Below, piece after piece: positions 5,909 to 27,772 of a DNA stretch of 36,315 bases (positions are counted from its first letter, which is position 1; each line of letters begins with the position of its first letter). This stretch comes from Nitrospinota bacterium. GTDB taxonomy: Bacteria > Nitrospinota_A > UBA7883 > JACRGQ01. The stretch spans positions 1 to 36,315 of the forward strand of contig JACRGQ010000017.1 in assembly GCA_016217735.1 (NCBI GenBank), given 5' to 3'. The notes under the pieces are model-generated. The model was not told the origin of the DNA. It did no database searches and saw nothing but the letters and a program-made list of their open reading frames with translations. Both the position numbers and the translations under genes were made by a program.

Positions 5909-5962
5909 GTACGGGATTATATAATGATTCAGCCACGGAACATTTATCGGGAGGATGCCAGG

Positions 5963-7069
5963 GTGATTATCGGAGTTCCGCGCGAGATCAAGGCGGATGA
6001 ATACCGCGTGGGGCTTGCCCCCGCCGGGGCGCGGAGCCTCGCGTTGGCCGGCCATGCCGTCCTCATCGAAAAAGGGGCGGGGGAGGGGAGCGGCTTTTCC
6101 GACGATGTCTACGCCGCCGAAGGGGCTGAAATCATCGGCGCCGCCCCGGAGCTTTGGCGCCGCGCCGAAATGGTGGTGAAGGTGAAGGAGCCGATCAATC
6201 CCGAATTCGACCACATGCGGGAAGGGCAAATTCTCTACACGTTCCTCCACCTTGCCGCCGACAAGACGCTCACCGAGCGGCTTCTGGAGAAAAAGATCAT
6301 CGGCATCGCCTATGAAACCGTGCGGGGACCGGGACACTCACTGCCGCTGCTGGTGCCAATGTCCGAAATAGCCGGACGGATGGCGGTGCAGGAAGGGGCG
6401 AAATACCTCGAAAAGGGCAACGGAGGCCGCGGCGTGCTGCTGGGCGGGGTGCCGGGGGTGGCTCCCGCGCGCGTCGTCATCATCGGCGGCGGGGTCGTGG
6501 GGGCCAATGCCGCCAAAATCGCCATCGGCATGGGGGCGCGCGTAAAGCTGCTGGACAAATCGCTGGAACGGCTGCGCTATCTTGATGACATTTTCGGGGG
6601 GAGGCTGGAAACCATCTATGCCAACCCGCTCACCATCCGCGCCGCCGCGCGCAAAGCCGACCTCCTGATCGGCGCGGCGCTGATTCCCGGCGCGAAAGCG
6701 CCGCGGCTTGTTACCCGCCAGATGGTCGCCGAAATGAAGCCGGGCGCGGTGATCGTCGACGTTTCGGTGGATCAGGGAGGATGCGTCGAAACCAGCCGTC
6801 CCACCACGCACCACGATCCCACATATGTGGTGGACGGCGTACTGCACTATTGCGTGGCGAATATGCCCGGGGCGGTTCCCCGCACCAGCACGCTTGCCCT
6901 CACCAGCGCCACGTTTCCTTATGCTTTTGAAATAGCGCAAAAAGGGATTACAATGGCCCTTCGGGAAAATGTCCTGCTGCGCCCCGGCGTAAATGTGCAT
7001 AAAGGCCTGTTAACGTGCGAAGAAGTGGCACAATCGCTTGATTTGAAATATACTTCGTTGGAAATATGA
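5963..7069 (+). CDS. ald: Alanine dehydrogenase
   Basis: Ald catalyses reversible NAD-dependent conversion of L-alanine and pyruvate plus ammonia. The protein starts at GTG 5963, 8 bases after a GGGAGGA ribosome site (5949-5955), giving 368 residues against about 371 for the family. With this start, catalytic Lys75, His96 and Asp270 fall at the numbers standard for the family. The nucleotide-binding VVIIGGGVVGANAAK and the HYCVANMPGAVPRTST signature are intact. Its stop overlaps the kinase start by 4 bp (ATGA), so the two are probably one transcript. It is divergent from yggS across a 54-bp gap. Confidence 0.96.
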   Translation: MIIGVPREIKADEYRVGLAPAGARSLALAGHAVLIEKGAGEGSGFSDDVYAAEGAEIIGAAPELWRRAEMVVKVKEPINPEFDHMREGQILYTFLHLAADKTLTERLLEKKIIGIAYETVRGPGHSLPLLVPMSEIAGRMAVQEGAKYLEKGNGGRGVLLGGVPGVAPARVVIIGGGVVGANAAKIAIGMGARVKLLDKSLERLRYLDDIFGGRLETIYANPLTIRAAARKADLLIGAALIPGAKAPRLVTRQMVAEMKPGAVIVDVSVDQGGCVETSRPTTHHDPTYVVDGVLHYCVANMPGAVPRTSTLALTSATFPYAFEIAQKGITMALRENVLLRPGVNVHKGLLTCEEVAQSLDLKYTSLEI

Positions 7070-9885: not shown

Positions 9886-10662
9886 TTACCGCGTGCCGAT
9901 TTCCGGCTTGGGGCTTTTGGGGCGGATGAAACTTTTCTTTGGATAATAGCCGGAAGGAAGCGTGGTGTTGGGATATACCCAGCATTGCTCTTCCAGCAGG
10001 GCGGCGGGAGAAGTAACGGAATTGCATCCCAATTCAGAGTGGTCGCCGATTATGGCCCCGAACTTGGCAATGCCGGTACGCACCGTTTCGCCGTTCAGCA
10101 CGAAGGTTATTTCGGGGAAGGATACCGCTTTCTTGGCTTCCGGAGCGCGGAATTTCAGGTTGGCGATTTTTGTCCCCGCGCCGAGGTTGACGTATGAACC
10201 GAGCACCGAATCGCCGATGTAATTGAAGTGTCCCGCCTCGGTGTGGTTCATCAGGATGGAGTTCTTGATTTCGGTGGCGTGTCCCAGTGTGCAGTGGTCG
10301 CCGGCGATCAGTTCGCCGCGCAAGTAGGCTCCCTGCCGGATTTCGCACTTGCGGCCGATGAGCGCCGGGCCTTTGATGTACGCGGACGGCTCGATTTTTG
10401 TCCCCGCCCCGATGAAAATGTGGAGCGGCCGGTAATCGAGGTCCTGCTTCAGAATCACGCCGGCATTGCAGAAAAGCGTTTCTCCGTCATGCACCAGTCC
10501 CGGCGGCAACGCCGCGCCGCCGGTGGCGGGGAAGTGGGCGAGGATGTAGCCGTGTATCTTCGGCAGCACGTCCCACGGGCGCGCGGCCCCGGAAAAAATC
10601 CCTTTGTGGGCGAAGCCGTCCAACTCGGGAAAAAAATTCCGCAGATTGAATTCAGTCGACAC
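9886..10662 (-). CDS. Stand-alone left-handed beta-helix (hexapeptide-repeat) protein of the sugar-nucleotide type
   Basis: The 258-residue product resembles the C-terminal beta-helix of sugar-1-phosphate nucleotidyltransferases without the catalytic N-domain. Hexapeptide-type coils run from about residue 80 (IFIGAGTKIEPSAYIKGPAL, IGRKCEIRQGAYLRGE). A GHFNYIGDSVLGSYVNLGAG segment typical of GlmU-like acetyltransferase lobes follows. An N-acetyl or acyl transfer to an amino-sugar phosphate is plausible given the glmS and phosphohexomutase neighbours. The start is GTG 10662, just after a GGAGGGA site that lies inside the preceding gene; the two overlap by 11 bp. It is last in the six-gene amino-sugar cluster and converges on mscS. 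Confidence 0.82.
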   Translation of the reverse strand: MSTEFNLRNFFPELDGFAHKGIFSGAARPWDVLPKIHGYILAHFPATGGAALPPGLVHDGETLFCNAGVILKQDLDYRPLHIFIGAGTKIEPSAYIKGPALIGRKCEIRQGAYLRGELIAGDHCTLGHATEIKNSILMNHTEAGHFNYIGDSVLGSYVNLGAGTKIANLKFRAPEAKKAVSFPEITFVLNGETVRTGIAKFGAIIGDHSELGCNSVTSPAALLEEQCWVYPNTTLPSGYYPKKSFIRPKSPKPEIGTR

Positions 10663-12550
10663 ATTCCCTCCCCAGCAGCGTGAGCGCAAGGCCCCCCGCG
10701 CCCGATTTTACCAGCTTCTGCTTAATCTCCATTTCGTAGATCAGGCGGTGGAAGTCGATGCCGGCATAGAATTCCTTTTTCGGCTGTTCGCCGTGGAAAA
10801 TCTGCTCCAGAATCATCCGTTCGGCGGCGGCCATCGGATGCTTCGGGTTTTTCATTTTTTTCATGAGATAGCCCAGCGCCGCGTTCGCGGTATTTTGCAG
10901 CAGCGCCTCCAAGGCGTGCGGTCCGCGCACATTCACGCTTATTTTGTCTTCGGTGCCGCTGTTGCGGACGAAGATGGAGGCGGTATGCCCCTCGCCGGCC
11001 TTTATCAGCTTTACAAAGAGCATGTCCGGCTCGTCGGCGATCAGCAGCGGTTCTCCCGCAAGGTCATTCACGTTTCCTTCCAGGATGGCTTTGCTGATAA
11101 TGTCCGCCACACCCTTCCAGACTTCGCTGCCACGCTGGAAGAGCTTTTTATCGATGTAGTAGCTGTAGCCGGTTTGCTTGAACCCGGGTTCGAACGGTTT
11201 CTTGAGGAGGGCGGCCATCTTCGCGGTATCGCCGCCGCCCAGCCGGTGGGCCGCCACCAAAGTGTTAATGGCCCCTTTCAGGCCGTTGCCGGCAAAAACC
11301 TTCGCTTCCGCCCCGCAGGCCGATAGCGGTATTACGCCGGCGTGGATGCTATGGCCGGTTTCTTCCGCCCCCAGCGCAAAGTTGCCGGGATCGCTGTTGG
11401 CGCGGTGGAGTATCCATTTATCCCCCACCGCCATCACTTCCGGTTTCAGGCCCAGACTGGCGATGTGGCGCGCGACGTTGATATCGCTTTCCACCGTATA
11501 AGCGAATGTTTTGCCGCGGCATCCATCGGGCGCCGATTCCATAAGCCAAGCGGCCTGTATGGCGGAGCATTCATCGCCGGAGAGGATGTGCAATGCGTCT
11601 TCGGCGAAATCGTACCAGAGGAGGAAAAAACGGTCGCCATCGCCGTCGAAGACCACCCCCATCAGCCATTTGCAATGGCCCGGCCTGGCGGCCATCGCCC
11701 GTCCGGCCTCGAACATTTTGTTTACCAGCTTGTGCCGGGCGATGCCGGCGTCTTTGGCGAAGCGCGCGGCGCTGATGCCGCGGATGCCTTCCAGGTAGGC
11801 AACCCCCGAATCACGGTTGATGTCGCCGTTTTGTTCGCCGGCCACCTCGGTCACTTGCCCGAAGCCAAGTTGCGAAAAGGTCATCGCTCCCAGCCCCGCC
11901 AGCGCGCCATGCGCGGCATCCACAATGAGCGCGGTTTCGGCGAAGAGCGTTTCCCCGGCGGCAATCCAGGTGTTGCGCGGATCCATGTGGAAGTCGGCGA
12001 ACTGCCGCCGTCCCCACTTGACGAGATCGACAGGGGGGTGTTTTTTTTGCGCCCGGCGCACCGCTTCGTAATCGGCGGCTTCGATGGCGGCCGAGAGGAG
12101 GTCGTCTTCCGCCGTCAGGGGCTTTACCGCGCCGGGGGCGTTAAAGACTTTTATGCCGTTCTGATCCCGGGGATTGTGCGATGCGGTTATCATGAAGGCG
12201 GTCGCGGCGGAGCGGCAGACCAGCGCAATTGCCACCCCTGGCGTGGGAATGACGCCGAGCACCGCAGGCACGCCCCCCGCCTTGGCGATACCATCCACCG
12301 CCTTGCCGGTGTAACGCCCTTCGGTGTCGCGGCCGTCCCACCCGATGAGGACTTCGTCCCCCGGCTCCATTCTCCCGGTTTCGATCATGCGGGTTACGTG
12401 GGTGTGACAATAGAGCTCGAAGAACTCTTCGGTCATTACCCCGTTACGGTGGAAAACTTCCAGCGGCCCCCCGTCGAATCCGGCCGCGGGTGCCACCGGG
12501 CGGCGGACGCCGTCGGTACCCTGCAGCCGTTCAACGGTTTTTCCCGCCAC
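10652..12550 (-). CDS. Phosphohexomutase (GlmM/ManB-like) with C-terminal extension
   Basis: This alpha-D-phosphohexomutase should interconvert hexose(amine) 6- and 1-phosphates. The phosphoserine loop ITASHNP (Ser124), the metal loop DGDGDR (302-307), the sugar loop GAEETGH (394-400) and the phosphate-binding RNSGTEDK (529-536) are all present. It has 632 residues, far longer than the roughly 450 of GlmM. About 90 residues follow the last catalytic domain, and there are insertions before it. The sugar loop does not exactly match the GEQSGH typical of GlmM, so the substrate is open. Its place between a glmS-like gene (3 bp upstream) and a beta-helix protein favours glucosamine-6-phosphate. 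The start is GTG 12550. Confidence 0.85.
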   Translation of the reverse strand: MAGKTVERLQGTDGVRRPVAPAAGFDGGPLEVFHRNGVMTEEFFELYCHTHVTRMIETGRMEPGDEVLIGWDGRDTEGRYTGKAVDGIAKAGGVPAVLGVIPTPGVAIALVCRSAATAFMITASHNPRDQNGIKVFNAPGAVKPLTAEDDLLSAAIEAADYEAVRRAQKKHPPVDLVKWGRRQFADFHMDPRNTWIAAGETLFAETALIVDAAHGALAGLGAMTFSQLGFGQVTEVAGEQNGDINRDSGVAYLEGIRGISAARFAKDAGIARHKLVNKMFEAGRAMAARPGHCKWLMGVVFDGDGDRFFLLWYDFAEDALHILSGDECSAIQAAWLMESAPDGCRGKTFAYTVESDINVARHIASLGLKPEVMAVGDKWILHRANSDPGNFALGAEETGHSIHAGVIPLSACGAEAKVFAGNGLKGAINTLVAAHRLGGGDTAKMAALLKKPFEPGFKQTGYSYYIDKKLFQRGSEVWKGVADIISKAILEGNVNDLAGEPLLIADEPDMLFVKLIKAGEGHTASIFVRNSGTEDKISVNVRGPHALEALLQNTANAALGYLMKKMKNPKHPMAAAERMILEQIFHGEQPKKEFYAGIDFHRLIYEMEIKQKLVKSGAGGLALTLLGRECVD

Positions 12551-12553
12551 CGG

Positions 12554-14374
12554 TTATGCCACCGTCACCGATTTGGCCAGCGCGCGCGGCTTATCCACGT
12601 TTTTGCCCAGCGTGACGGCGGCGAAGTAGGAGTAGAGTTGCGCCGCCACGAGGCTCACCAGGGGGGCGACGAGCGGGGCCGACGCCGGGAGCATGAGCTG
12701 GTCGTCCAGCAGCTTCGATTTCTGGAGCGTCCTGGATGAGTGGAAAGCGGTCACCGAGCCGCCCCGCGCCTTCATTTCTTCGATGGAGCTCATCGTCATT
12801 TTGAAGAGATCTTCTTCCTTTTCGGTTGGGACGAAAACGAGCGACTTGAGCTTGTCGTCAATGAGGGCGATGGTGCCGTGCTTCAGGAAGCCGGCCGGCA
12901 TCCCTTCGGCATGCAGGTAAGCCACTTCTTTTACCTTAAGCGCCGCTTCGAGCGCGATGGGATAGTAGCGTCCCCGCCCCAGGTAAAGCCAGTTGTGGTG
13001 GTGCGCCGTGCGTTGCGCCAAGGTATGCACGAAGCCCGAATATTCGTTGAGGAAACCGGAGATTATTTCCGGCAGCGTTTCGAGCTGTTTCATTTTCAGT
13101 TTTTTTTCCGCCGGGGTGATTCGCTTGGTTATCACGCCCGCCTCGATGGCTGTGCGGATGAGGATGATCATCTGCGCCAGCGCCGCTTTGGTGCTGATAA
13201 CGCATATTTCGGGGCCGGAGCCTTGCATCACCACGTCGTCCACGAGGCGCGCCATTGTGCTGCCGATGACGTTCACCACCACGGCGGTGCGGGTTTTGCG
13301 GCGTTTCGCTTCGCGCAGGACGCGCAGCGTGTCGTACGTCTCGCCCGATTGTGAGACGGCCAGGATGAAGTCTTCCGCCCCGAAGGCGGCCCCCTCCAGA
13401 AATTCATCGCTGCTCATGGCGGTGGCGCCGACACCCGCTTCGCTGGCTAGATAGTATTGCCCCAGTTGGGCCACATAGTAGGTTGTCCCCACACCCGTCA
13501 GGAAAGCGCGGCGCGATTCGACCAGGCGGCGTGCCATGCTGACGATGGATTTTTCGTCGATGGCGAGCGCTTTTATGACGGTCTGCGGTTGCTCGTGGAT
13601 TTCTTTGAGCATGTAGTGGGGAAATCCCCCTTTTTTGCTCATCTCGGCGTCCCATTCGATCGGCATCACCTGCTTGTCCACCGGTTCGCCGTTTGACATC
13701 CGTTTTATGGCGTAGCTTTCGTTGGAGATGATGGCGTATTCCCCGTCGTCCATCACGACGGCGTTCTTGGTGTATTCGATGAAGGCGTTGAAATCCGACC
13801 CGAGGTAGTTTTCATTACGCCCCAGCCCGATAATGAGCGGGCTTTCGTGCTTGCCGCAGAAAATGCACCACGGCTCTTCGGCGGATACCATCGCGACGGC
13901 GAACGAGCCGTCCAGTTCTTTCAGGGCCGCCACGAACGACGCTTCCAGCGGCATTCCCCCCTTGCGGTATTCCTCAATGAGATGGGGGATCACTTCGGTA
14001 TCGGTTTCGGACACGAAGCGGTGTCCCTTTTTCGTGAGCTTGGCCCTAAGTTCGCCATAGTTCGAAATAATGCCGTTATGCACCACCGCGATGGAACCAT
14101 CGCAACTGGCGTGCGGGTGGGCGTTCACCGGCGTAACCCCGCCGTGGGTTGCCCAGCGGGTGTGGGCGATTCCCACGTGGCCGTCGAGCGAGGTGAAAAG
14201 CTCCTTTTCCGCCACTTCGGCCACGTGCCCGACGTTTTTGCGGACGATGGGGCCGTGGGAATTTATCACCGCCATTCCGCAGGAGTCGTATCCGCGGTAT
14301 TCAAGGTTCTGGATGCTGTCAAGCAGCCGCCGCGAGATGTTGGAATTGGAGACGATGCCGCTGATGCCGCACAT
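12554..14374 (-). CDS. Glutamine-fructose-6-phosphate aminotransferase paralogue with intact nucleophile
   Basis: A full-length GlmS of 606 residues: an N-terminal Ntn glutaminase domain and two sugar isomerase (SIS) domains. The start is MCGISG, so Cys2 becomes the free N-terminal nucleophile after Met removal. HTRWATHG, HNGII and SETDTEV supply the glutamine pocket. The isomerase half keeps SQSGET, the KVKE glutamate, KHG and the C-terminal AKSVTV. Compared with the classical enzyme it has Phe for Glu and Thr for Pro around AGFLKHGT, and ends in Ala rather than Glu. It should make glucosamine-6-phosphate from fructose-6-phosphate and glutamine. It lies 2 bp after the nucleotidyltransferase gene and is the second glmS-like gene in the cluster. 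Confidence 0.92.
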   Translation of the reverse strand: MCGISGIVSNSNISRRLLDSIQNLEYRGYDSCGMAVINSHGPIVRKNVGHVAEVAEKELFTSLDGHVGIAHTRWATHGGVTPVNAHPHASCDGSIAVVHNGIISNYGELRAKLTKKGHRFVSETDTEVIPHLIEEYRKGGMPLEASFVAALKELDGSFAVAMVSAEEPWCIFCGKHESPLIIGLGRNENYLGSDFNAFIEYTKNAVVMDDGEYAIISNESYAIKRMSNGEPVDKQVMPIEWDAEMSKKGGFPHYMLKEIHEQPQTVIKALAIDEKSIVSMARRLVESRRAFLTGVGTTYYVAQLGQYYLASEAGVGATAMSSDEFLEGAAFGAEDFILAVSQSGETYDTLRVLREAKRRKTRTAVVVNVIGSTMARLVDDVVMQGSGPEICVISTKAALAQMIILIRTAIEAGVITKRITPAEKKLKMKQLETLPEIISGFLNEYSGFVHTLAQRTAHHHNWLYLGRGRYYPIALEAALKVKEVAYLHAEGMPAGFLKHGTIALIDDKLKSLVFVPTEKEEDLFKMTMSSIEEMKARGGSVTAFHSSRTLQKSKLLDDQLMLPASAPLVAPLVSLVAAQLYSYFAAVTLGKNVDKPRALAKSVTVA

Positions 14375-14376
14375 GG

Positions 14377-15585
14377 TTATTTTCCGCCTTTCGGGTAGGT
14401 GAAATGGTGGGGAACCACCGTTTCCGGCTCAATTATGGAGCCGGGGGCGATGGTGTGGCCGGCTCCCAGGCGGCAGTTGTCTCCCACGAACGCGCCGAGC
14501 TTTACCATATTCGAATCAAGCGCCTTCCTGTTTACCGGCACTTTTACGGTGGAGCCGTCCATGTTGTTGTTGACGGTCACAATGCCGGAGCCGACGTCGA
14601 CCCCTTCGCCGATAACGCTGTCGCCGATAAAGGAGAGACGGCCCACGCGGCCGCCGCCGGTCAGCACGCAGTTTTTCATTTCCACCCCATAGCCGATCAC
14701 GGATTTGGGGCCGAGCGACGAATATTTGCGCACCAACACGTTATTGCCGATGTATGTTCCGCGGCCTATGAAGGCGGGGCCTTCGATGATCGAGCCGGAA
14801 CGGATTTCCGCGTCTTCCTCGATGATAACCGGCCCCTTGATCTTGGCGTCGCGCATCTGCACCGACTGGTGCACGCGGGCGTGGGTCCAGGTATCCATCA
14901 CCATTTTGTTCGCCGCCAGAATGTCCCACGGGTAACCGATATCGATCCACCCCTTTTCCCACATGGCCGCCCTGAGCCCCTCGTTTTTGATCAGCTCCGC
15001 CAAGGCCTTGGCCATATCGCTCCGGTTTTTTTCCAGCAGCCCGAAGAATGTGTACGGGAGCACATAAATCCCCGCCAGCACATAATTGCCCAAATTCTTG
15101 CGTTCCGGCTTTTCCACGATTTTGGTGATGTTCATGGTGTTATCCAGATACACGTTGCCGAACGAGCCGGATTCCGCGGGGAGGCATATGGCGGCGGTCG
15201 GCTTTCCGCCCAGGCCGAATATCTGGAGGGCGTTGCGTATGATGTTGTCGTCGGTCACCACATCGGCATAGACCAGCAGGAAATGTTCGCCCGGGGCGAA
15301 TTTTCCCTTGGCGGCGAGGATCGCGTCGCCGATGCCAGCCTGCTTTTTTTGCTGCACATAGCTGATGCCCATGCCGATGTTCTGGCCGGAACCGAAGTAG
15401 TCGGTGATTGACTTGCCCAACGGACCCATGACGCAGATGACGTCGTTAAACCCCGATTCCTTGAGCATTTGCAGCGACCGGTAGAGGATCGGCCGGCCCG
15501 CCACATGCAGCATGGATTTGGGGCGGGTGGTCGAGAACGGGGCCATATTGTTCCCGCCGCCCGCGGCGAGGATTAATGCTTTCAT
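14377..15585 (-). CDS. Sugar-1-phosphate nucleotidyltransferase with C-terminal left-handed beta-helix
   Basis: This 402-residue two-domain protein is of the archaeal-type GlmU/RmlA-like design. The N-domain (about 1-230) opens with LAAGGG and has RPKSML, the metal Asp in VYADVVTDD and a WIDIGYPWDILAANK signature. The C-domain (about 245-400) is a hexapeptide beta-helix. In the usual GxGxR(M/L) loop the conserved Arg is replaced: it reads GGGNNM. Since this Arg contacts the nucleotide triphosphate, catalytic power may be altered. Expected role: UTP-dependent activation and/or acetylation of glucosamine-1-phosphate. A strong AAGGAG site stands before the ATG. It is sandwiched between the two glmS paralogues. 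Confidence 0.87.
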   Translation of the reverse strand: MKALILAAGGGNNMAPFSTTRPKSMLHVAGRPILYRSLQMLKESGFNDVICVMGPLGKSITDYFGSGQNIGMGISYVQQKKQAGIGDAILAAKGKFAPGEHFLLVYADVVTDDNIIRNALQIFGLGGKPTAAICLPAESGSFGNVYLDNTMNITKIVEKPERKNLGNYVLAGIYVLPYTFFGLLEKNRSDMAKALAELIKNEGLRAAMWEKGWIDIGYPWDILAANKMVMDTWTHARVHQSVQMRDAKIKGPVIIEEDAEIRSGSIIEGPAFIGRGTYIGNNVLVRKYSSLGPKSVIGYGVEMKNCVLTGGGRVGRLSFIGDSVIGEGVDVGSGIVTVNNNMDGSTVKVPVNRKALDSNMVKLGAFVGDNCRLGAGHTIAPGSIIEPETVVPHHFTYPKGGK

Positions 15586-15597: not shown

Positions 15598-17415
15598 TTA
15601 CACGGTAACGCTTTTTGCCACATTCCGCGGCCTGTCCACGTCTTTATTATTGTATAAGGCAACATAATAGATGAAAAGCTGGGCCGGAACAATCGCCAGT
15701 AGCGGCGCCAGGATGTCCGGCGCGCCGGGCAGCGCGATAAAGTCGTCGCAATGCGATTCCACGCCGCTGCCCGCGAAACCGGTGGCAATCAGCCGCGCGC
15801 CGCGCGCCCGCAGCTCATCCATGTCGTTGAGCGTCTCCTGCAACAGCGAGCGGAGGTTGCCGAAGTAGAGGATCGGCGTGTTTTTTTCCACCAGGCTGAT
15901 CGGGCCGTGCTTCATTTCCCCCCCCACCAGCCCTTCGCCGTGGATGCCGGCCACTTCTTTCATTTTAAGTCCGCAGTAGAGGGCTACCGGGTAGTTGAGC
16001 CCCCGTCCGACAAAATAGAAGCTCTTATGGTGCGAAAATTTTTCCGCCAAACGCCGTATCAGCGTCTCATAGGTGACCATCATCTCCATCTGTTCGGGCA
16101 GCTTCGTCAGCGCGTCGATCAGCTTCCGTTGCCCTTCCTCGGGCAAGGCGCCTTTGGCCCGCGCCAGGTGCAGCGCCAGGAGGGCGGTGGCCGCCACATT
16201 GGCCGAAAAGGTTTTGGTGGAGGCGATGGATATTTCCGGCCCCGCCCGGGTGACGAACAGGTCGTCCGCCAGGCGGGCAAGGGCGCTGTCGCCGTTGTTG
16301 GTGATGGCCAGCAAACGCGCTCCCTTTTCCTTGGCCGCTTTCGAGCTTTCGATGGTGTCGTGCGTTTCGCCCGACTGGGAAATCGCCACATAAAGGGTGT
16401 TCTTCTCGATGACCGTCGTGTCGAAACGGTATTCGGAGGAAATCACGCGCGCGGCGGGCACGCCCGCCACCGTTTCGCACAGCCGCTGCCCCAGCATGGC
16501 CGCCACATACGAGGCGCCGCCGCCGCAGAAGACCACCTTTTTGATTTCCTTCCCCGCGCCGCAGGGGAACGCGAAAGCCTCCGGCGCGTATTGCTCCGCT
16601 TTTCCCCGGAAACAGCCGGCGATGGTCTCGCGCACCGCGCGGGGGGATTCCACGATTTCTTTCAGCAGGTAATTGCGGTAGCCCCGCTTTTCGGCCATGA
16701 CCGGATTCCAGGATATTTTTTGCGGCGTCTGCTCCACCTGCCGTCCCTCGAAATTGAGCAGTTGCGCCCCTTCGGGGGTGAGCAGCGCCACTTCGCCATC
16801 CCGCAAAAAGACCATCGTGTCGGTGTATGGGGCAATGGCGGTGGCGTCGGAGGCGGCGAGGTATTCCCCTTTCCCCAGCCCGATCACCATCGGGTTCCCT
16901 TTGCGGACCACCACCAACTGTTCCGGGGAGCGCGCCGAAACGGCGCAGAAGGTAAGCCCCCCCTCCAGCAATTTCAGAACCGCCAGCACCGAATCGATCA
17001 GATCGCCCCGCCAGTGCAGATTGATAAGGTGCGGGAGTATTTCGGTGTCGGTCTCGCTGCGGAAACGTATCCCTTGTTTTTTGAGCTGCCCGCGCAGGGC
17101 CATGGCGTTTTCTATGATGCCGTTATGCACCACCGCCGTGTCCCCCGCCACCTGGGGATGCGCGTTTTTTATGGAGGGCTTGCCGTGCGAAGCCCAGCGG
17201 GTGTGCGCGATTCCCACGTTGCCCGGCAGCGGCTTCGCGCGGAGCTTTTCGGTCAACCCCGCCGGTCTCCCCAGCGTCCGCTTGATGGCAAGTTTTCCGC
17301 CGCTGATGAGCGCGATGCCGCTGCTGTCGTACCCGCGGTATTCCAGCCGGGTGATCGCATCCAGCAATATGTCCTGCGCGTTGCGGGGGCCGATGTAGCC
17401 GGCAAGCCCGCTCAT
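15598..17415 (-). CDS. GlmS paralogue with Ser in place of the catalytic Cys
   Basis: A full-length GlmS homologue (605 residues) with glutaminase and two SIS domains. The protein begins MSGLAGYIG, where the family has MCGI.G; the codon is AGC, so the Ntn nucleophile is Ser. The rest of the glutamine pocket is kept: HTRWASHG, HNGIIEN and SETDTEIL. The isomerase half looks normal, with SQSGETHDT, KMKE, GGEMKHGP and AKSVTV, though GASY replaces GTSY. Cys-to-Ser changes abolish glutaminase activity in characterised GlmS and PurF, so the protein may be ammonia-dependent, partner-dependent or regulatory; Ser can serve as nucleophile in other Ntn hydrolases. It starts in the ATGA overlap with the uridylyltransferase stop. 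No upstream in-frame Cys start is visible. Confidence 0.9.
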   Translation of the reverse strand: MSGLAGYIGPRNAQDILLDAITRLEYRGYDSSGIALISGGKLAIKRTLGRPAGLTEKLRAKPLPGNVGIAHTRWASHGKPSIKNAHPQVAGDTAVVHNGIIENAMALRGQLKKQGIRFRSETDTEILPHLINLHWRGDLIDSVLAVLKLLEGGLTFCAVSARSPEQLVVVRKGNPMVIGLGKGEYLAASDATAIAPYTDTMVFLRDGEVALLTPEGAQLLNFEGRQVEQTPQKISWNPVMAEKRGYRNYLLKEIVESPRAVRETIAGCFRGKAEQYAPEAFAFPCGAGKEIKKVVFCGGGASYVAAMLGQRLCETVAGVPAARVISSEYRFDTTVIEKNTLYVAISQSGETHDTIESSKAAKEKGARLLAITNNGDSALARLADDLFVTRAGPEISIASTKTFSANVAATALLALHLARAKGALPEEGQRKLIDALTKLPEQMEMMVTYETLIRRLAEKFSHHKSFYFVGRGLNYPVALYCGLKMKEVAGIHGEGLVGGEMKHGPISLVEKNTPILYFGNLRSLLQETLNDMDELRARGARLIATGFAGSGVESHCDDFIALPGAPDILAPLLAIVPAQLFIYYVALYNNKDVDRPRNVAKSVTV

Positions 17416-18158
17416 GCGCGGACGCCCGCGGCGCGGGCGCGGTTAAGCGCCGCCAGTTCGTCAACGGTGTTGACGCCGGCGATCTCGCCGATGTCCGGCA
17501 GTTTCAGCGCCGCGACTTTCTTCCCCTGGGCCAGCGCGATTTTCACCACGTCGGTCAGGTAGTATTCCTTTTGGTCGTTTGCGGGACGTATCTGTTCCAG
17601 CGCGCTCCAGAGAAAGGGGGCGTCGAAAACGTAGATGCCGCCGTTGATCTCGGTGATCCCCTTTTGCGCGGGGGAGGCATCCCGCTCTTCCACAATGGCG
17701 CTCACCGCGCCGCCGGCATCCCGGACCACCCGCCCATAACCGGCGGGATTTTGACATTCGGCGCTCAACAGCGTCACCGCCGCGCCGCTCTCCACCGCCA
17801 GCGCCAGCAGGCGGCGCACCGTGGCGGCCCGCACCTGCGGCACATCGCCGGAGAGCACCACCACCTTGCCGCCAAAACCGGCCAGCGCCGCGCGGGCCTG
17901 CATCGCGGCATGGGCGGTGCCAAGCTGTTCGCGCTGTATGGCGAAGAGTGTGCCGGTTCCGGCCAAAGCTTCCCGCACCATCTCCGCCTTATAGCCGACC
18001 ACCGCCACGATGGTATCGGCGATTTCCCGCGCGGTGCGCGCCACATGCGCCACCAGCGGTTCGCCCGCGAAGGGGTGCAGCACCTTCGGCAGATCGCTTT
18101 TCATGCGGGTTCCCTTGCCGGCCGCGAGGATGATGACCGCCACGCCCTGTTTGTCCAT
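17412..18158 (-). CDS. GlmU-type N-acetylglucosamine-1-phosphate uridylyltransferase domain, stand-alone
   Basis: The 248-residue protein matches only the N-terminal pyrophosphorylase half of bacterial GlmU. It has LAAGKGTRMKSDLPKVLH (nucleotide loop with the conserved Arg), REQLGTAHA, VLSGDVP (metal Asp), PAGYGRVVRD and EINGGIYVF. The C-terminal beta-helix acetyltransferase half is absent; the gene ends soon after NTVDELAALNRA. It should form UDP-sugar from UTP and the sugar-1-phosphate. The beta-helix function may be supplied by the two hexapeptide proteins downstream. The open frame extends to 18260, but the ATG at 18158 fits homology, with a GGAAAA-like site before it. It is the first gene of the leftward amino-sugar cluster; its promoter region holds a MITE-like element. 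Confidence 0.9.
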   Translation of the reverse strand: MDKQGVAVIILAAGKGTRMKSDLPKVLHPFAGEPLVAHVARTAREIADTIVAVVGYKAEMVREALAGTGTLFAIQREQLGTAHAAMQARAALAGFGGKVVVLSGDVPQVRAATVRRLLALAVESGAAVTLLSAECQNPAGYGRVVRDAGGAVSAIVEERDASPAQKGITEINGGIYVFDAPFLWSALEQIRPANDQKEYYLTDVVKIALAQGKKVAALKLPDIGEIAGVNTVDELAALNRARAAGVRA

Positions 18159-18204
18159 GGGGCAATTTTCCAGTAAAGCGCCGCGTAAAGCAATCGCGAT
18201 ATTC

Positions 18205-18336
18205 AGTAGTGCATCAGTTTGAGATTGCCGCGGCCATCTTCGATGGCCTCGCAATGACAAATAACTGTCATTGCGAGTGTTAACGAAGCAATCTCATGCT
18301 CCATGCAAACATTAATTTCAAACTGAACCACTACCG
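18205..18336. mobile_element. MITE-like nested palindromic element
   Basis: A 132-bp non-coding element is bounded by imperfect terminal inverted repeats. GTAGTG..TCAGTTTGA (18206-18222) pairs with TCAAACTGA..CACTAC (18318-18334). Inside them GAGATTGC (18221-18228) faces GCAATCTC (18288-18295), and CTCGCAATGACA (18248-18259) faces TGTCATTGCGAG (18266-18277). The left arm holds its own perfect hairpin, GGCCATC-TTC-GATGGCC (18232-18248). A 7-bp direct repeat GATATTC occurs at 18198-18204 and 18337-18343, consistent with a target duplication. No open frame is present, so it would be mobilised in trans. It fills most of the divergent gap between the glmU-like gene and the broken hydrolase. Confidence 0.6.
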
Positions 18337-21187: not shown

Positions 21188-22173
21188 CAGCCGCCGCGGG
21201 CCACCTTCAGTTGCGGGGCGCCCACCGTGAAATCCAGGACGCGCATTCCCGTTTTGGCCATTGCCGCGGCGATAACCGGCTTTTTCTCCGGCGCGCACCA
21301 GACGATAAAGCAGCCCCCTCCGCCCGCGCCGCAGACCTTCGGGTGGCCGCCGTTTTTTTTCGCGATGGCGAAGGCGCGCCGGAGTTTCGGGGTGATGATT
21401 CCTTTGCCGAGTTTTTCCCGCATGGCGCTCTCAACGTCGATCAGCTTGCCGATGCGGTCGTAAAGTCCTTCCAGCAGCATGGCGGAAAGCTCCAGCGAGT
21501 TTTTGGCGATGGCGGTGAAGGCGGCGCGGGTGACGGCGTTGTGTTCCACCGCTTTTTTAAGCATCAGCCAGTTGGGCACGCCGGAGACGCGCGATTGCCC
21601 GGAATAGACCAGCACCACCCGCCGTTCCAGTTCGGCGGCGGGGACATCCAGCCGTTCGTATGTCTGTTTTTCGTGGAGATTGAGCACTCCGTTCACGCCG
21701 CCGGAGAGCGCCGCAACGTAGTCCTGCACGCCCGTGGGAATGCCGAGGTGGCGCGCTTCGATGTTCTTTGCCGCATCCAGCAGATCGCCATCGGCCATTT
21801 TCAGGTCATTGATCTTCGCCAGCGTTTTCAGGAAGGCGATGAGCAGCGCGGATGAGCCCCCCAGCCCCGCGCCGGCGGGGGAGAGGCAGTCCGCTTCGAA
21901 ATGCCATCCTTCGGCGGGAATGAAATCGAGCGCGCGGTGAAAGAGCGTCTTCTTTTTTTCCGGCGTGGCGGGATCGTAGGTGATGACCGTCCCCAGATGC
22001 GGCGCGTGGATAACCGTTCCCTTTTTCCCGCTTTTTGCGGCGGTGACCGTTGCGTAGAGGCTGGTTGCCGCGTTAACCGATATCGCCGGGGCGAACATTA
22101 CCGAAAGCGGCCAGATGTCCAGTGTGCCGCCGCACAGGTCGATGCGGGTGGGGGCTTTTGCCGTGATTTTCAT
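21187..22173 (-). CDS. GHMP family small-molecule kinase
   Basis: This 328-residue protein shows the three GHMP blocks. The N-terminal substrate motif is APTRIDLCGGTLDIWPL, the ATP loop is SPAGAGLGGSSALL, and the C-terminal block is GAGGGGCFIVW. Relatives phosphorylate sugars such as heptose-7-phosphate, fucose or galactose; the CGGTLD pattern resembles sugar-kinase types rather than mevalonate or homoserine kinases, but the substrate cannot be fixed. The start at ATG 22173 follows GGAGGAAAT; an earlier in-frame ATG (22242) lacks such a site and homology. It is coupled to the antiporter downstream and divergent from the RCC1 gene. Confidence 0.88.
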   Translation of the reverse strand: MKITAKAPTRIDLCGGTLDIWPLSVMFAPAISVNAATSLYATVTAAKSGKKGTVIHAPHLGTVITYDPATPEKKKTLFHRALDFIPAEGWHFEADCLSPAGAGLGGSSALLIAFLKTLAKINDLKMADGDLLDAAKNIEARHLGIPTGVQDYVAALSGGVNGVLNLHEKQTYERLDVPAAELERRVVLVYSGQSRVSGVPNWLMLKKAVEHNAVTRAAFTAIAKNSLELSAMLLEGLYDRIGKLIDVESAMREKLGKGIITPKLRRAFAIAKKNGGHPKVCGAGGGGCFIVWCAPEKKPVIAAAMAKTGMRVLDFTVGAPQLKVARGG

Positions 22174-22317
22174 ATTTCCTCCGTTGCCGGCGGCGTGATG
22201 CCGCACGGTTATCCAAGCCGGTATATTACCATCCCGGCGCATACCGGCGGGAGGGCCGTTGTGATATTATTCCGGCAGGTGCCAACGGCGGTTAGACAAA
22301 TGTGGGAGGAATCGATA

Positions 22318-23475
22318 ATGGGTGTCAGGACGCGGGGATATGTGGCCGTGGTTTTTACGGCGGCGGCAATGGTTTCGTCTTTTGTCCATGCGGCCGGCCC
22401 GCAGGCGGCGGATAACCTCAAAATCTGCTTTGGGGAGAAGCACGCGGCCATGCTGAAGCCCGACGGCACGGTTGCGACATGGGGGCAGAACGACATGGGA
22501 CAACTGGGGACGGGAACCAACACCCCCAGCACCGTGCCGGTAAAAGTGGTAAATCTTGCAAACGTCACGGCGATAGCGTGCGGCGCCAGCTTTACCCTGG
22601 CGCTCAGGAACGATGGCACCGTGATGGGATGGGGACAAAATCTGATGGGGCAGTTGGGCAACCGCACCAAGGTGAATACGCCTTTTCCGGTGCAGACGCT
22701 GGATATTACCGATGTGGAACAGATCGCCGCGGGGAAGGCGCACGCCGTGGCGCTGTTGAAAAGCGGCATGGTCATGGGATGGGGTTCCAATATTTACGGG
22801 CAGGTGGGCGACGGCGCGCAGAAACCGACCCTTTCGCCCGTGCGGCTTTTCGGCGACCTCAAAGGGATACAGATGATTTCCGCGCGCGGCGACCACACCC
22901 TCGCCCTTGCCGCCGACGGCACGGTTTGGTCATGGGGCCTCAACAAGTCGGGCCAGTTGGGGAGCGGGATAAAGAGCGATATCGCCTTGCCGTCCCAGGT
23001 CATCGGGCTGTTCAACGTGTATGCGGCCAAGGCGGGCAACCAGCACTCCGTTGCGGTGAAGGAGGACGGCACCGTCTGGGCCTGGGGGCTGGATAACAAT
23101 GGCCAGACCGGTATCGGCGTCGGCGGCGCGTGGGGTACCGGCATCACGTTGCCGGCGCCGGTGTTTTACCTTAAAGACGTGACGGCGATTTTTACCTGCG
23201 GCAACTCGACATTCGCGCAGCGGAAAGACTGGACGGTCTGGGCGTGGGGGAACAATTCCGCGGGCCAGCTTTGCCTCGGCTCCAAGACCGACGTTCCGTG
23301 GCCGCTGCAGGTGAACGCCGCAACGGGGGTTCAGTCGGTCATCTGTTCAGAGGCGCAAACCATCCTCGTGAAGAACGATGGAACAATGTTCGCATGTGGC
23401 GATAACAGCACCGGTCTTCTGGGAGACAAGATAAAAGGGCAGAGTTCCATCCCCGTGAAACTGACGCTGGAGTGA
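22318..23475 (+). CDS. Secreted RCC1-repeat beta-propeller protein
   Basis: The 385-residue protein begins with a signal peptide (basic MGVRTRGY, hydrophobic stretch, probable cut after VHA). Seven RCC1-like repeats follow, each with a DGTVxxWGxNxxGQLG core; the sixth and seventh are diverged (DWTVWAWGNN, DGTMFACGDN). Seven repeats would close a single seven-bladed propeller. A GGGAGGA site lies 8 bases before ATG 22318, settling the start although the frame is open from 21901. Bacterial RCC1 proteins are usually exported or surface-located binding proteins of unknown partner. It is a single gene, with panB convergent downstream. Confidence 0.9.
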   Translation: MGVRTRGYVAVVFTAAAMVSSFVHAAGPQAADNLKICFGEKHAAMLKPDGTVATWGQNDMGQLGTGTNTPSTVPVKVVNLANVTAIACGASFTLALRNDGTVMGWGQNLMGQLGNRTKVNTPFPVQTLDITDVEQIAAGKAHAVALLKSGMVMGWGSNIYGQVGDGAQKPTLSPVRLFGDLKGIQMISARGDHTLALAADGTVWSWGLNKSGQLGSGIKSDIALPSQVIGLFNVYAAKAGNQHSVAVKEDGTVWAWGLDNNGQTGIGVGGAWGTGITLPAPVFYLKDVTAIFTCGNSTFAQRKDWTVWAWGNNSAGQLCLGSKTDVPWPLQVNAATGVQSVICSEAQTILVKNDGTMFACGDNSTGLLGDKIKGQSSIPVKLTLE

Positions 23476-23530: not shown

Positions 23531-23605
23531 ACCGTCAATGGCGGTCAGGGGCCGGCGTTGCGCATCGTGGCCTCCTCCTGTTGCGGTCGAATCCGCATAC
23601 GCGGT

Positions 23606-24451
23606 TCATTCCTTCTTTTTGCCCACCACTTTCAGCGGCGATTCGGCACGTTGGCTGTAGGTGTGCTCTTTCGCCGGGAAAGAGCCGTTTCGCACTTCGC
23701 CGATGTAAGCGCCAAAGGCGTCTTTCACCCGCGCGCGCAGATCGGAAAAAACTTTGACGAAGCGGGGATGCGGGCCGTCCGAGAGCCCCAGCATATCGTG
23801 CATCACCAGTATCTGTCCGTCGCACCGCGCGCCCGCGCCGATGCCGATGGCGGGGATGTGCAGCGTTTCGGTGATCGTTGCGGCCAGGTCAGCCGGTATC
23901 GCCTCCAGCACCGCGGCGAAAGCTCCCGCCTTTTCCACGGCGCGGGCGTCGGCCAGCAGGCGGCGGGCGCTGTCGCCCTGCTTCCCCTGCACCTTATAGC
24001 CCCCCAGTTGGTGGTAGCTCTGCGGCGTCAGGCCGATGTGCCCCATCACCGGGATGCCCGCGTCCACGATGGCGCGTATCCGGTCGGCGTACTTCTCGCC
24101 CCCTTCCAGCTTCACGCCGTGCGCGCCGCTTTCCTGCATGATGCGGCCGGCGTTTTCCAGCGCCTTTTGGGCCGATACCTGGAAGCTCATGAACGGCATG
24201 TCGACCACCACCATCGCGTTCTGCACGGCGGCGGTGACCGCCTTGGCGTGGTGGATCATCTCCTCGATGGTGACGGAGAGCGTGTCGCGCCGCCCCAGCG
24301 CGGCCATGCCGACGCTGTCTCCGACGAGAACGATGTCCACCCCCGCCTCGTCCATGATGCGGGCGAAGGGGGCGTCGTAGGCGGTGAGCGCGGTTATCCT
24401 GCGGTGCGCGCGCTTCATTTCCAGCAATGTGGTTACGGTGACGGGTGCCAT
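23606..24451 (-). CDS. panB: 3-methyl-2-oxobutanoate hydroxymethyltransferase
   Basis: PanB adds a hydroxymethyl group from methylene-tetrahydrofolate to alpha-ketoisovalerate, making ketopantoate for pantothenate and CoA. The 281-residue length is normal. Metal and substrate residues are visible: VGDSVGM (Asp45, Ser46), VVVDMPFMSF (Asp84), VKLEGG (Glu116) and VLEAIP (catalytic Glu183). An AAGGAG site stands before ATG 24451. It is the last gene of the leftward run, 98 bp after the deoxynucleoside kinase, and is followed by a strong terminator. Its folate-dependent reaction pairs naturally with folK upstream. panC and panD are not in the window. Confidence 0.96.
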   Translation of the reverse strand: MAPVTVTTLLEMKRAHRRITALTAYDAPFARIMDEAGVDIVLVGDSVGMAALGRRDTLSVTIEEMIHHAKAVTAAVQNAMVVVDMPFMSFQVSAQKALENAGRIMQESGAHGVKLEGGEKYADRIRAIVDAGIPVMGHIGLTPQSYHQLGGYKVQGKQGDSARRLLADARAVEKAGAFAAVLEAIPADLAATITETLHIPAIGIGAGARCDGQILVMHDMLGLSDGPHPRFVKVFSDLRARVKDAFGAYIGEVRNGSFPAKEHTYSQRAESPLKVVGKKKE

Positions 24452-24549
24452 GATGGGTGCTCCTTTCCGCGGCCGGGAAAGAAAGAATGCCTGGCGTATG
24501 CCCCCGTCAGCGAAGGGAGGGGGCCGCCGTTCTTTCCGTCCCGGTCAAT

Positions 24550-25200
24550 TTACATTGATCCAAGCGGATTGAAAAATTCCCTCCCTTTTACCGGGCGGGA
24601 AATTTTCTCCAGCAATTTAATAAAGTCCTGTTCGTTCTCCACAAAATCGATGCCGCTGGTGTTCACCTGCAGCGATGGCCCGGCATCGTAGTGGAAGAAC
24701 CACCGGTGGTAGGCCTCGTTGACCTCCGCGATGTACTTTTCCTCGATGCCGGCTTCAAAATTCCGTCCCCGCTTCCCTATCCGGCGAACCAGCGTGTCCG
24801 TGTCCGCCGAAAGGAAAATGACGAGGTCCGGCTTTACCAGCCGCGCCAGCAACAATCCGTAAATTTCATTATACAGCTTGAATTCCTCGGAATCCAGATT
24901 GAGCAGGGCGAAGAGCCGATCCTTTTCCAGCATGTAGTCCGCCACCACCATTTTTTGGAACAGGTTTACCTGATTGGCCTCCTGCAGCTGCTTTTGGCGG
25001 GAGAGGAGGAAGAACATCTGCGCCTGGAATGCGTACTGCCGCCGGTCTTTGTAAAAGCCGGACAGGAAGGGATTTTCCTCCACCTTTTCCATGATGGTCT
25101 GCGCGCCGAAGTGCCCCGCCAGCTTCAGGGTAAGCGAGGATTTTCCCACCCCGATCGGCCCCTCGATGGCGATGTAGTTAGGCGCGCGCGGACCCTTCAC
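24550..25200 (-). CDS. Deoxynucleoside kinase (deoxyadenosine/deoxyguanosine kinase type)
   Basis: This 216-residue dNK-family protein phosphorylates deoxynucleosides for salvage. The P-loop IEGPIGVGKSS (residues 12-22), the KVEENPFLSGFYKD segment, FFLLSRQKQL and the RIGKRGRNFE lid-like motif match the family. The start is a GTG at 25200, overlapping the folK 3' end by 23 bp. The folK-dNK neighbour pair recurs in several bacterial groups. Exact base preference (dA, dG or dC) cannot be read from the sequence. Confidence 0.88.
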   Translation of the reverse strand: MKGPRAPNYIAIEGPIGVGKSSLTLKLAGHFGAQTIMEKVEENPFLSGFYKDRRQYAFQAQMFFLLSRQKQLQEANQVNLFQKMVVADYMLEKDRLFALLNLDSEEFKLYNEIYGLLLARLVKPDLVIFLSADTDTLVRRIGKRGRNFEAGIEEKYIAEVNEAYHRWFFHYDAGPSLQVNTSGIDFVENEQDFIKLLEKISRPVKGREFFNPLGSM

Positions 25201-25684
25201 GGGTTACCTGTTGATCCGCGGTTAAAGCGTTAAGCGCCGCGCTGGTCCGCTTCAACACCGGGTGGACAATATGCGGGGCGATCTCGGCCAGCGGTTCCAG
25301 CACAAAGCGGCGCTGGGCCATCCGCGGATGCGGCACCGAAAGGCGCGGCAATGCCACGATGTGGCTGCCGTAAAGGAGAATGTCGATATCGATGGGACGG
25401 TCGGTATAAAGCCCCTTGCTGCGGCGGCCGAGGGAAAGCTCGATCTCCTCCAGCCGGTCCAGCAGGTTCAGCGGGTCCAGCGCGGTGCGCAGCTCGGCCA
25501 CGCAGTTGAGAAAGGGGGTGGCGTCTTTCTCCATCCCGACCGGCGCGGCGCAATACATGCCGGAGAGGGCCGCAACCTCCACGCCGTCGAGCTTGCGCAG
25601 TTCGGCGATGGCGGCCGCCATGTTGGCGCGGCGGTTCCCCTCGTTCGATCCGAGGGAGAGATAGACCGTTTCCATGTTTTTCAT
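25178..25684 (-). CDS. folK: 6-hydroxymethyl-7,8-dihydropterin pyrophosphokinase (HPPK)
   Basis: FolK transfers pyrophosphate from ATP to hydroxymethyldihydropterin in folate synthesis. The 168-residue protein has SLGSNEGNRRANM at the N-terminus, the central DRPIDIDILLYG with the two magnesium-binding Asp residues, and VPHPRMAQRRFVLEPLAEI. Start 25684 (MKNMETVY) or the ATG at 25675 are both possible. It lies 12 bp after dapL and overlaps the kinase gene, so all appear co-transcribed. folC, a later step of the same pathway, is at the far right of the window in a separate unit. Confidence 0.95.
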   Translation of the reverse strand: MKNMETVYLSLGSNEGNRRANMAAAIAELRKLDGVEVAALSGMYCAAPVGMEKDATPFLNCVAELRTALDPLNLLDRLEEIELSLGRRSKGLYTDRPIDIDILLYGSHIVALPRLSVPHPRMAQRRFVLEPLAEIAPHIVHPVLKRTSAALNALTADQQVTREGSARA

Positions 25685-25696
25685 TGTATCGGCGGC

Positions 25697-26932
25697 TCAG
25701 AAAACGAGGCCGGCCTCCAGCATCCGTTGCTTCATCAGGGCGACGACCCGTTTTTCGTCCGCCTCGTCTTTCGCTTCGAAGGTGCAGCCGAAGCGGAGGA
25801 AGCTTCCCACGGTGTCTTCCGGCACGGTGGAGATCAGCTTTTCCTTGATGAGGAACTGGCTGGCATCCTCGGCGGTGGCGAATTTCACGCCCCCCTTCGT
25901 CCCCTTGGGGGCGGGCACATACAGATAGAACGTGCCGCCGGGGAGTTTGGCGTCGAAGCCCACTTCCCGCAGAGCGTCCACCATCAGCTTGAGTTTGCGT
26001 TCATATTTCGCCACCGTCCGGGCGGTGATGGCGGGGTTTTGCAGCGCCTTGACGCCGGCGTGCTGGATGGCGGCGAACTGGCCGCTGTCGCAGTTGTCCT
26101 TCACCGTGGCGAAGGCGTTGACGACGAGCGGGTTGCCCGCGACGAACGCCATGCGCCAGCCGGTCATGTTGAACGCTTTGGAGAGGGAGTGGATTTCCAC
26201 GCCGACGTCCATCGCGCCGTCGATGCTCAAGAAAGAGAGCGGCTTGCGGCCATAGACCAGCGCGCCGTAGGCGGCGTCCTGCACCACCACCAGCTTGTGC
26301 TTGTTGGCGAACGCGACAACTTTTTCAAAAAACTTCGCGTCGGCCATCGCGCCGGTCGGGTTGTTCGGGTAGTTGATGTAGAGCATCTTCGCCTTCGCCA
26401 GCTTGTCGGCGGGGATGGCGTCGAGATCGGGCAGGAAGCCGTTCTCGCGCTTGAGTGGCAGGTTCACCACCTCGCCGCCGTAATAGGCGGTGTGCGTCCC
26501 CATCACCGGGTAGCCCGGCACGGTCATAAAGGCGACGTCGCCGGGATTGATGAAACAGGCCGGCATCATGGCCAACGCCGGCTTGCTGCCGATGGCGTGG
26601 TTGACGTGCTTTGCGGGGTCGAGCCCCTTCACGCCGTACACGGCGTCCATGTACGCGCAGGCGGCGTCCTTGAACGCTTGTATGCCGTTGTCGGTGTAGC
26701 CCCGGTTTTCACGCCGCCGGGCCTGGGCGATTAATTCATCCACAACCAGTTTATCGGCCATCCAGTCCGGCTCGCCGACGCCCATGTCGATCATCTCCGC
26801 GCCCGGATTGGCGGCCAGGGCCGCGCGCTTGGCCCGCTTGATCTTCTCGAATTTGTAGATTTTATCTTCTTTGCCGAAGTTCTTGCCGCCGATGCGCTCG
26901 GCAAACAGCTGCTGTATGTACGGTTCGCTCAT
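25697..26932 (-). CDS. dapL: LL-diaminopimelate aminotransferase
   Basis: DapL converts tetrahydrodipicolinate directly to LL-diaminopimelate using glutamate, bypassing the acylated DapD/C/E branch of lysine and peptidoglycan synthesis. The 411-residue fold-type I aminotransferase carries the hallmark KIYKFEKIKRAKRAA followed by IDMGVGEPDW at the N-terminus, INYPNNPTGA, and the PLP Lys252 in SLSKAFNMTGWR. The family is patchily spread (plants, Chlamydiae, deltaproteobacteria, Nitrospirae and others), which helps narrow the host. A different substrate among close class I enzymes cannot be wholly ruled out. It follows tlyA by 99 bp and precedes folK. Confidence 0.88.
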   Translation of the reverse strand: MSEPYIQQLFAERIGGKNFGKEDKIYKFEKIKRAKRAALAANPGAEMIDMGVGEPDWMADKLVVDELIAQARRRENRGYTDNGIQAFKDAACAYMDAVYGVKGLDPAKHVNHAIGSKPALAMMPACFINPGDVAFMTVPGYPVMGTHTAYYGGEVVNLPLKRENGFLPDLDAIPADKLAKAKMLYINYPNNPTGAMADAKFFEKVVAFANKHKLVVVQDAAYGALVYGRKPLSFLSIDGAMDVGVEIHSLSKAFNMTGWRMAFVAGNPLVVNAFATVKDNCDSGQFAAIQHAGVKALQNPAITARTVAKYERKLKLMVDALREVGFDAKLPGGTFYLYVPAPKGTKGGVKFATAEDASQFLIKEKLISTVPEDTVGSFLRFGCTFEAKDEADEKRVVALMKQRMLEAGLVF

Positions 26933-27031
26933 ACGGTCTCCAAATATGCCGGTTGTGCATCCGGTTTTGTAAAAAAGGAATGGTACGGCAAAACCGCCTT
27001 CGGGTCAATGCCGCCCGGCACAATCCGGATT

Positions 27032-27772
27032 TTACTTTCTCCGGAAGGCGGCGAGAAACTCGCGGTTTCCCTTTGTGCCTTCGATGGGGGAATCGATATG
27101 GCCGATGGCGGCAAGGCCGAGGCCGCTCCCCAGCGCGAGGATTTTATCCACCACGCGTTGATGCACCTTGGGGTCGCGCACGATGCCGCCGCTTCCCACC
27201 TCTTCGCGCCCCGCCTCAAACTGCGGCTTCACCAGCGCGATGCAGACGCCGCCGGGGGCCAGAACCGCAACGGCGGGGGGGAGGATCAGCTCCAGCGAGA
27301 TGAACGACACGTCGACGGCGATGATGTCGAACGGCCCGCCCACATCCTCCGGCCTCAGGTTGCGCGCGTTGTATTCCTCGATGACGGTTACGCGCGGGTC
27401 GTTCCGCAGTTTCCAGTCGATCTGGTTTTTTCCCACATCCACAGCCACCACTTTCGCCGCGCCGCGTTGCAACAGGCAGTCGGTGAAGCCGCCGGTGGAC
27501 GCGCCGATGTCCAGCGCGGTTTTTCCCGCCGGGTCGATGTGGAATGCGTCCAGCGCCGCCGCGAGCTTCAGTCCGCCGCGTCCCACATAGGGGTGGTCTT
27601 TCCCCTTCACTTCGATAACGGCGTCGTCCGCCACCGCCTCGCCGGCCTTTTCGGCTTTCCGGCCGTCGACGAAGATGTTGCCGGAGAGGATGAACGACTG
27701 TCCCCGCGCGCGGGTGGGGGCGAGACCCCGCTCAACCAGCAGCAGGTCGAGACGTTTTTTTTTCAGAGCCAT
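27032..27772 (-). CDS. tlyA: TlyA family rRNA 2'-O-methyltransferase / hemolysin-like protein
   Basis: This 246-residue protein has an N-terminal S4 RNA-binding domain (about 1-65, KKRLDLLLVERGL then GNIFVDGRKAEKAG). An FtsJ-type SAM domain follows (about 80-235) with LDIGASTGGFTDCLLQRGA. YVGRGGLKL joins the two. TlyA in mycobacteria methylates 16S and 23S rRNA; the hemolysin label is historical. It sits in the conserved xseB-ispA-dxs-tlyA order, but separated from dxs by a 192-bp gap filled with palindromes. Confidence 0.93.
   Translation of the reverse strand: MALKKKRLDLLLVERGLAPTRARGQSFILSGNIFVDGRKAEKAGEAVADDAVIEVKGKDHPYVGRGGLKLAAALDAFHIDPAGKTALDIGASTGGFTDCLLQRGAAKVVAVDVGKNQIDWKLRNDPRVTVIEEYNARNLRPEDVGGPFDIIAVDVSFISLELILPPAVAVLAPGGVCIALVKPQFEAGREEVGSGGIVRDPKVHQRVVDKILALGSGLGLAAIGHIDSPIEGTKGNREFLAAFRRK

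Follow-up and report, generated by a model that had tools for sequence, protein, structure and literature searches.

The Ser-GlmS gene and its operon

The window, i.e., the whole 36,315 nucleotide stretch of Nitrospinota DNA that was analyzed, carries a minus strand gene (positions 15598 to 17415; 605 amino acids from an ATG start) for a canonical (type-1) GlmS in which serine replaces the nucleophile cysteine (hereafter Ser-GlmS). The replacement of Cys by a Ser encoded by AGC had been proposed in a first-pass annotation and was confirmed for this open reading frame. The protein begins with MSGLAGYIG and the serine (codon at 17410 to 17412, minus strand) is residue 2, corresponding to position 1 of the mature chain, and is N-terminal if the methionine is removed. 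The assigned start was considered secure since the reading frame is closed by a stop 10 codons 5' of the ATG, with no alternative start in between. A cysteine hidden by a misplaced start codon was also ruled out across the Ser-GlmS genes, with stops 1 to 15 codons upstream in 10 of 11.

Curated HMMs confirmed a full-length GATase and double SIS architecture, with scores above the cut-offs of the GlmS equivalog TIGR01135 (640.5 bits, cut-off 418) and NF001484 (644.9 bits, cut-off 381). The AlphaFold2 model (mean pLDDT 88.5, pTM 0.80) had E. coli GlmS 2J6H as its best match (TMq 0.88; TMq 0.93 for 1JXA), and the glutaminase part of the model superposed on 1XFF at 1.2 Å over 237 columns. This glutaminase (class II GATase) domain (residues 1 to 240; 16696 to 17415, minus strand) has a pocket that is intact bar the nucleophile, with Ser at T76, and contains all three glutamine-pocket motifs listed in the first-pass annotation (HTRWASHG, HNGIIEN, and SETDTEIL). 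The isomerase signatures had likewise been described as kept, which held for K485, E488, H504, and K603 (E. coli numbering) in the isomerase (double SIS) domain (residues 241 to 605; 15598 to 16695, minus strand) but not for E481Y, T302A, and C300G, all three being positions that are invariant in 85 canonical proteins. The tyrosine at Glu481 is residue 480 of Ser-GlmS, encoded at 15976 to 15978 on the minus strand.

The minus strand operon runs in the order GlmU-N, Ser-GlmS, archaeal-type GlmU, T2-GlmS, a phosphoglucosamine mutase-like protein, and a beta-helix acyltransferase. GlmU-N (17412 to 18260, minus strand) is a uridylyltransferase domain alone that matches GlmU residues 2 to 235 of 452, the acetyltransferase half being absent, and its gene shares a 4-base ATGA overlap with that of Ser-GlmS. 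Downstream of Ser-GlmS lie the archaeal-type GlmU, a bifunctional sugar-1-phosphate nucleotidylyltransferase/acetyltransferase (14377 to 15585, minus strand; TIGR03992 above cut-off), and at a distance of 1.2 kb T2-GlmS, a second and complete GlmS with Cys1 that belongs to a separate clade (12554 to 14374, minus strand). These are followed by the divergent, 632 amino acid phosphoglucosamine mutase-like protein (10652 to 12550, minus strand) and a left-handed beta-helix acyltransferase akin to the C-terminal half of archaeal GlmU (9886 to 10689, minus strand). The mutase-like protein scored 108 bits against the GlmM model (cut-off 447), gave Pfam matches to domains I and III only, and measures about 670 to 680 amino acids in sister families. 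The gene order was unchanged in the members of the window's Nitrospinota family (f1) with an assembled cluster, and the sister families f2 to f6 carry an equivalent cluster from which Ser-GlmS is absent. Scans for promoters and terminators gave matches no more frequent than in shuffled sequences.

Among 61 canonical loci with sufficient upstream DNA, glmU was found immediately upstream of glmS in 42, usually at its full length of ~460 amino acids, and Ser-GlmS therefore occupies the ancestral glmU-glmS position. The GlmU ahead of Ser-GlmS is shortened to about 250 to 280 amino acids with loss of the acetyltransferase half, a reduction to the uridylyltransferase half that was seen across the whole class. 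The acetyltransferase is now apparently provided by the archaeal-type GlmU and/or the beta-helix protein.

Elsewhere in the window, an alanine dehydrogenase/PNT-type protein (5360 to 7069) has an N-terminal extension of ~200 residues without a Pfam match. An RCC1-repeat protein (21901 to 23475) lies upstream of two ORFs without matches (23558 to 24691 and 25262 to 26734), which are followed by a 1013 amino acid ORF (27008 to 30049) that also has no Pfam match.

Conservation of the serine and of the ligand pockets

The serine was sought in related genomes and was present at residue 2 in all 11 with a readable GlmS start in the Ser lineages, comprising nine of nine in f1 (G000, G001, G003, G004, G006, G007, G008, G009, and G010), G023 from another Nitrospinota class, and G071, the sole sampled genome of another phylum. 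A sequencing error or one-off mutation was excluded by this result as far as the genomes show, those near the window all being metagenome assemblies, though independent. The serine codon, read from the DNA in each case, is AGC in G000, G001, and G003 of a single genus, TCG in G004, TCA in G006 (TTG start), TCT in G007, TCC in G008 (GTG start), G009, and G010, TCT in G023, and TCG in G071, such that the set uses AGC plus all four TCN codons. As AGC and TCN codons are never one base apart save via Cys or Thr, their occurrence within one family indicates that the serine was gained repeatedly or passed via a Cys/Thr intermediate, the residue being held either way.

Outside the Ser lineages, 85 canonical GlmS proteins were read and every one had Cys1, and pattern scans of 385 genomes for ATG-Ser-Gly GlmS starts gave matches confined to the f1, G023, and G071 lineages. 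Wider sampling of the phyla to which the T2-GlmS genomes G065 and G202 belong (four genomes each) yielded no further Ser-GlmS, and neither GlmS was found in the f1 genome G005, where an assembly gap is probable. In a quick tree the G071 Ser protein fell beside a Cys protein (SH-aLRT 95%) and in a more careful one, built after masking of position 1, all Ser proteins came together (95/83), both being unsafe guides to the origin of the serine because the G023 branch is long.

Ten Ser proteins (eight of them from f1) were compared residue by residue with the 85 canonical GlmS, positions being numbered as in mature E. coli GlmS. The glutamine pocket residues R26, Y28, R73, W74, H77, H86, N98, G99, and D123 were invariant in all 10 Ser proteins, still so at identities as low as 36%, and T76 was Thr or Ser (T76S in five). 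R73 and D123 are the contacts for the amino and carboxyl groups of glutamine itself, and Cys1-to-Ser replacement inactivates characterized class II amidotransferases. The isomerase domain retained Q348, S349, E488, A602, and K603 along with an unaltered SQSGET/S phosphate loop; the changes there comprised T302 in 10/10 Ser proteins, E481Y in 8/8 from f1, K485 to Met/Leu in 5/8 from f1 (Lys in the window's genus), H504Q in G071, and E495F and H493Y in G023. The catalytic residues of GlmS are Cys1, Glu488, His504, and Lys603 (review, PMC9272926), and Lys485 and Glu488 are counted as key isomerase residues (PMC7948480).

Position 1 aside, canonical GlmS has 46 columns with a conservation of 97% or more in the glutaminase domain, of which 35 were kept by all Ser proteins, and 75 such columns in the isomerase domain, of which 39 were kept (Fisher p = 0.012); the same contrast was not significant in T2-GlmS (p = 0.18). 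Pairwise dN/dS values among three congeners were 0.056 to 0.070 for Ser-GlmS and 0.048 to 0.084 for T2-GlmS. Ser-GlmS values were low in either domain (0.04 to 0.09; glutaminase domain 0.05 to 0.09), indicating that the gene is maintained and not decaying, and the reading frame was intact in each complete copy. The suggestion in the first-pass annotation that the retained domain has a selected role was supported by the conserved serine, the low dN/dS of the glutaminase domain, and the essentially invariant glutamine pocket.

The T2-GlmS clade

T2-GlmS formed a distinct clade in the tree (SH-aLRT 100) that is apparently undescribed, and NCBIfam draws no distinction between it and canonical GlmS. 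It occurred in about 40 sampled genomes, mostly without a canonical GlmS. Among the 385 sampled genomes, 19 outside the Nitrospinota encoded T2-GlmS, of which 18 had no canonical GlmS and the 19th was G071, with a canonical GlmS bearing Ser. T2-GlmS was present in all Ser-GlmS carriers (the f1 genomes, G023, and G071), and wherever the start was readable the canonical GlmS beside it had Ser, an association that spans three lineages and possibly goes back to a single origin. T2 genomes other than these were devoid of a type-1 GlmS.

Cys1 was retained in 21/21 T2 proteins, as were E481, K485, E488, H504, and K603, and the identity to Ser-GlmS was only about 38%. An isomerase-defective T2-GlmS dependent on Ser-GlmS was consequently rejected, as T2-GlmS retains the five isomerase residues and is the sole GlmS in the sister families. 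A candidate fragment of a second GlmS in G055 proved to be the N-terminus of the T2 gene of that genome. In the loci outside the Nitrospinota that were checked, T2-GlmS mostly adjoins an archaeal-type GlmU, and this arrangement was seen in about a dozen families (loci L147 to L151 and L180 to L206), where T2-GlmS usually replaces canonical GlmS. In G071 (L143, 8743 to 16403), Ser-GlmS and the pair of archaeal GlmU and T2-GlmS are 2.4 kb apart, and the ~2.4 kb spacer contains two long ORFs without a match in either Pfam or NCBIfam.

Proposed role and comparison with known systems

Ser-GlmS has the hallmarks of a pseudoenzyme, with a catalytic residue gone, a ligand pocket retained, and purifying selection. 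The second, Cys-bearing GlmS and the loss of isomerase residues, both absent from the first-pass annotation, move the balance from ammonia-driven synthesis toward a ligand-binding, catalytically impaired partner. The reading to which we give the most weight, with a probability of roughly one half, is that Ser-GlmS is a ligand-binding pseudo-amidotransferase that tunes T2-GlmS or the UDP-GlcNAc enzymes of the operon to the glutamine supply. Ser-GlmS would be the ancestral canonical GlmS of the lineage in its original glmU-glmS place, and its catalytic work would have been taken over by T2-GlmS, encoded beside the archaeal-type GlmU in the same operon. Its nucleophile has been lost by the change of Cys to Ser, as have isomerase-site residues lineage by lineage, but the pocket for glutamine and most of the one for the sugar phosphate are retained under strong purifying selection. 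The protein would bind glutamine (and hexose phosphate) with no hydrolysis, and a shape change or mixed oligomers could tune T2-GlmS or the UDP-GlcNAc operon enzymes.

From known chemistry, Ser-GlmS is expected to be glutaminase-dead, it should still bind glutamine, and it may be in regulatory contact with T2-GlmS; its residues further suggest that it is most likely isomerase-impaired, lineage by lineage. For the substitution itself, the closest parallel is human carbamoyl phosphate synthetase I (CPS1), and precedents for the control of GlmS include a dimer-hexamer switch and inhibition by bound EIIA-Ntr (PMC5024086). A counterpoint to the regulator model is that E488, H504, and K603, the three principal catalytic residues of the isomerase, are present throughout f1, so that isomerase activity may survive there. 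Furthermore, T2-GlmS is alone in many genomes and hence needs no partner, and its low identity to Ser-GlmS makes mixed dimers uncertain.

An ammonia-using enzyme analogous to CPS1 is a rather unlikely alternative, in which the isomerase domain would make GlcN6P from free NH3 or ammonia leaked by T2-GlmS, or act in reverse as a deaminase, the glutaminase domain being a structural or allosteric remnant. CPS1 offers a precedent for a Cys-to-Ser change followed by ammonia use, deaminases with a single SIS domain are known among its relatives (NagB-II/GlmD type; weak partial matches), and the isomerase residues E488, H504, and K603 of the window's family fit such an activity. However, R73 and D123 would be needless for ammonia, E481 is gone in f1 together with K485 in five of eight proteins, H504 is gone in G071, and GlcN6P in the sister families already comes from T2-GlmS. 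Other amidotransferases can use ammonia, whereas GlmS reportedly cannot (PMC9272926). It is this report and the invariant contacts to the glutamine amino and carboxyl groups that make ammonia use less favored. A working N-terminal Ser1, i.e., a natural serine-type class II glutamine amidotransferase that is slower or tuned to another amide, was judged improbable. Serine is the nucleophile in other Ntn hydrolases, the strictly conserved start position and residue 2 make a free N-terminal Ser plausible after methionine removal, and the oxyanion and glutamine pockets are intact. Against this, the N-terminal Cys is catalytic in characterized class II amidotransferases (PMC7948480, PMC9272926), a complete Cys enzyme is encoded alongside, and drifting isomerase residues are unexpected for a working synthase. 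Serine catalysis is less favored because the Ser-GlmS isomerase site drifts while the T2 site is intact, and it is just as doubtful that such an enzyme was kept beside the Cys-type GlmS, possibly acting on another amide or sugar.

Altered chemistry, in which the glutaminase domain would gate a changed isomerase site that works on another sugar phosphate, is a still more doubtful reading. The E481Y change fixed in f1, the altered T302 of all Ser proteins, and the abundance of sugar nucleotide enzymes in the operon are in line with it, but the unchanged phosphate loop and K603 suggest that the substrate class is probably unchanged. A separate phosphoglucose isomerase-family gene elsewhere in the genome makes Ser-GlmS unneeded for that step, and a role as the sole phosphoglucose isomerase was rejected for the same reason. 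The least credible explanation is a relic, i.e., a canonical GlmS made redundant once T2-GlmS took over and now decaying, as might be supposed from the sister families f2 to f6 that have no type-1 GlmS at all. A decaying pseudogene is contradicted by purifying selection, since dN/dS values of 0.06 to 0.07 equal the level of the neighboring T2 gene and the frames are intact.

Ser-GlmS is of wider interest because GlmS, which is under study as a target for antimicrobials, is the enzyme that commits carbon and nitrogen to cell wall synthesis. A natural GlmS with a glutamine pocket and no nucleophile offers a test of how glutamine binding alone controls an amidotransferase, and the strict pairing with T2-GlmS would show plainly how an essential enzyme can be displaced while its old copy stays on for another job. 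It is also a warning for annotation, as the TIGR01135 equivalog calls a probably glutaminase-dead protein GlmS. The literature searched, the coverage of which was incomplete, contained no description of a GlmS that naturally lacks its nucleophile.

Compared with known systems, Ser-GlmS resembles GlmS (EC 2.6.1.16; TIGR01135, E. coli 2J6H/1JXA) in its two-domain architecture, glutamine pocket, phosphate loop, E488/H504/K603, and glmU-glmS operon position, and differs in the Ser at Cys1 and the replacement of T302, C300, and E481 (also K485 or H504 in relatives). The E. coli C1A mutant (PDB 3OOJ) is likewise a GlmS without its nucleophile and still binds ligands, its structure having been solved with glucose-6-phosphate and glutamate; unlike Ser-GlmS, it is a laboratory mutant with otherwise intact active sites. 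In human CPS1, Ser294 occupies the position of the catalytic Cys and glutamine is unusable (PMC4655335), such that in both proteins the catalytic Cys became Ser and a glutaminase-like domain was retained. In contrast to Ser-GlmS, CPS1 is a class I triad GATase and not an Ntn enzyme, and it uses ammonia and has no complete paralogue in the same operon. The T2-GlmS clade shares its family, architecture, and operon with Ser-GlmS but retains Cys1 and all five isomerase residues, is linked to archaeal-type GlmU, and stands alone in most genomes.
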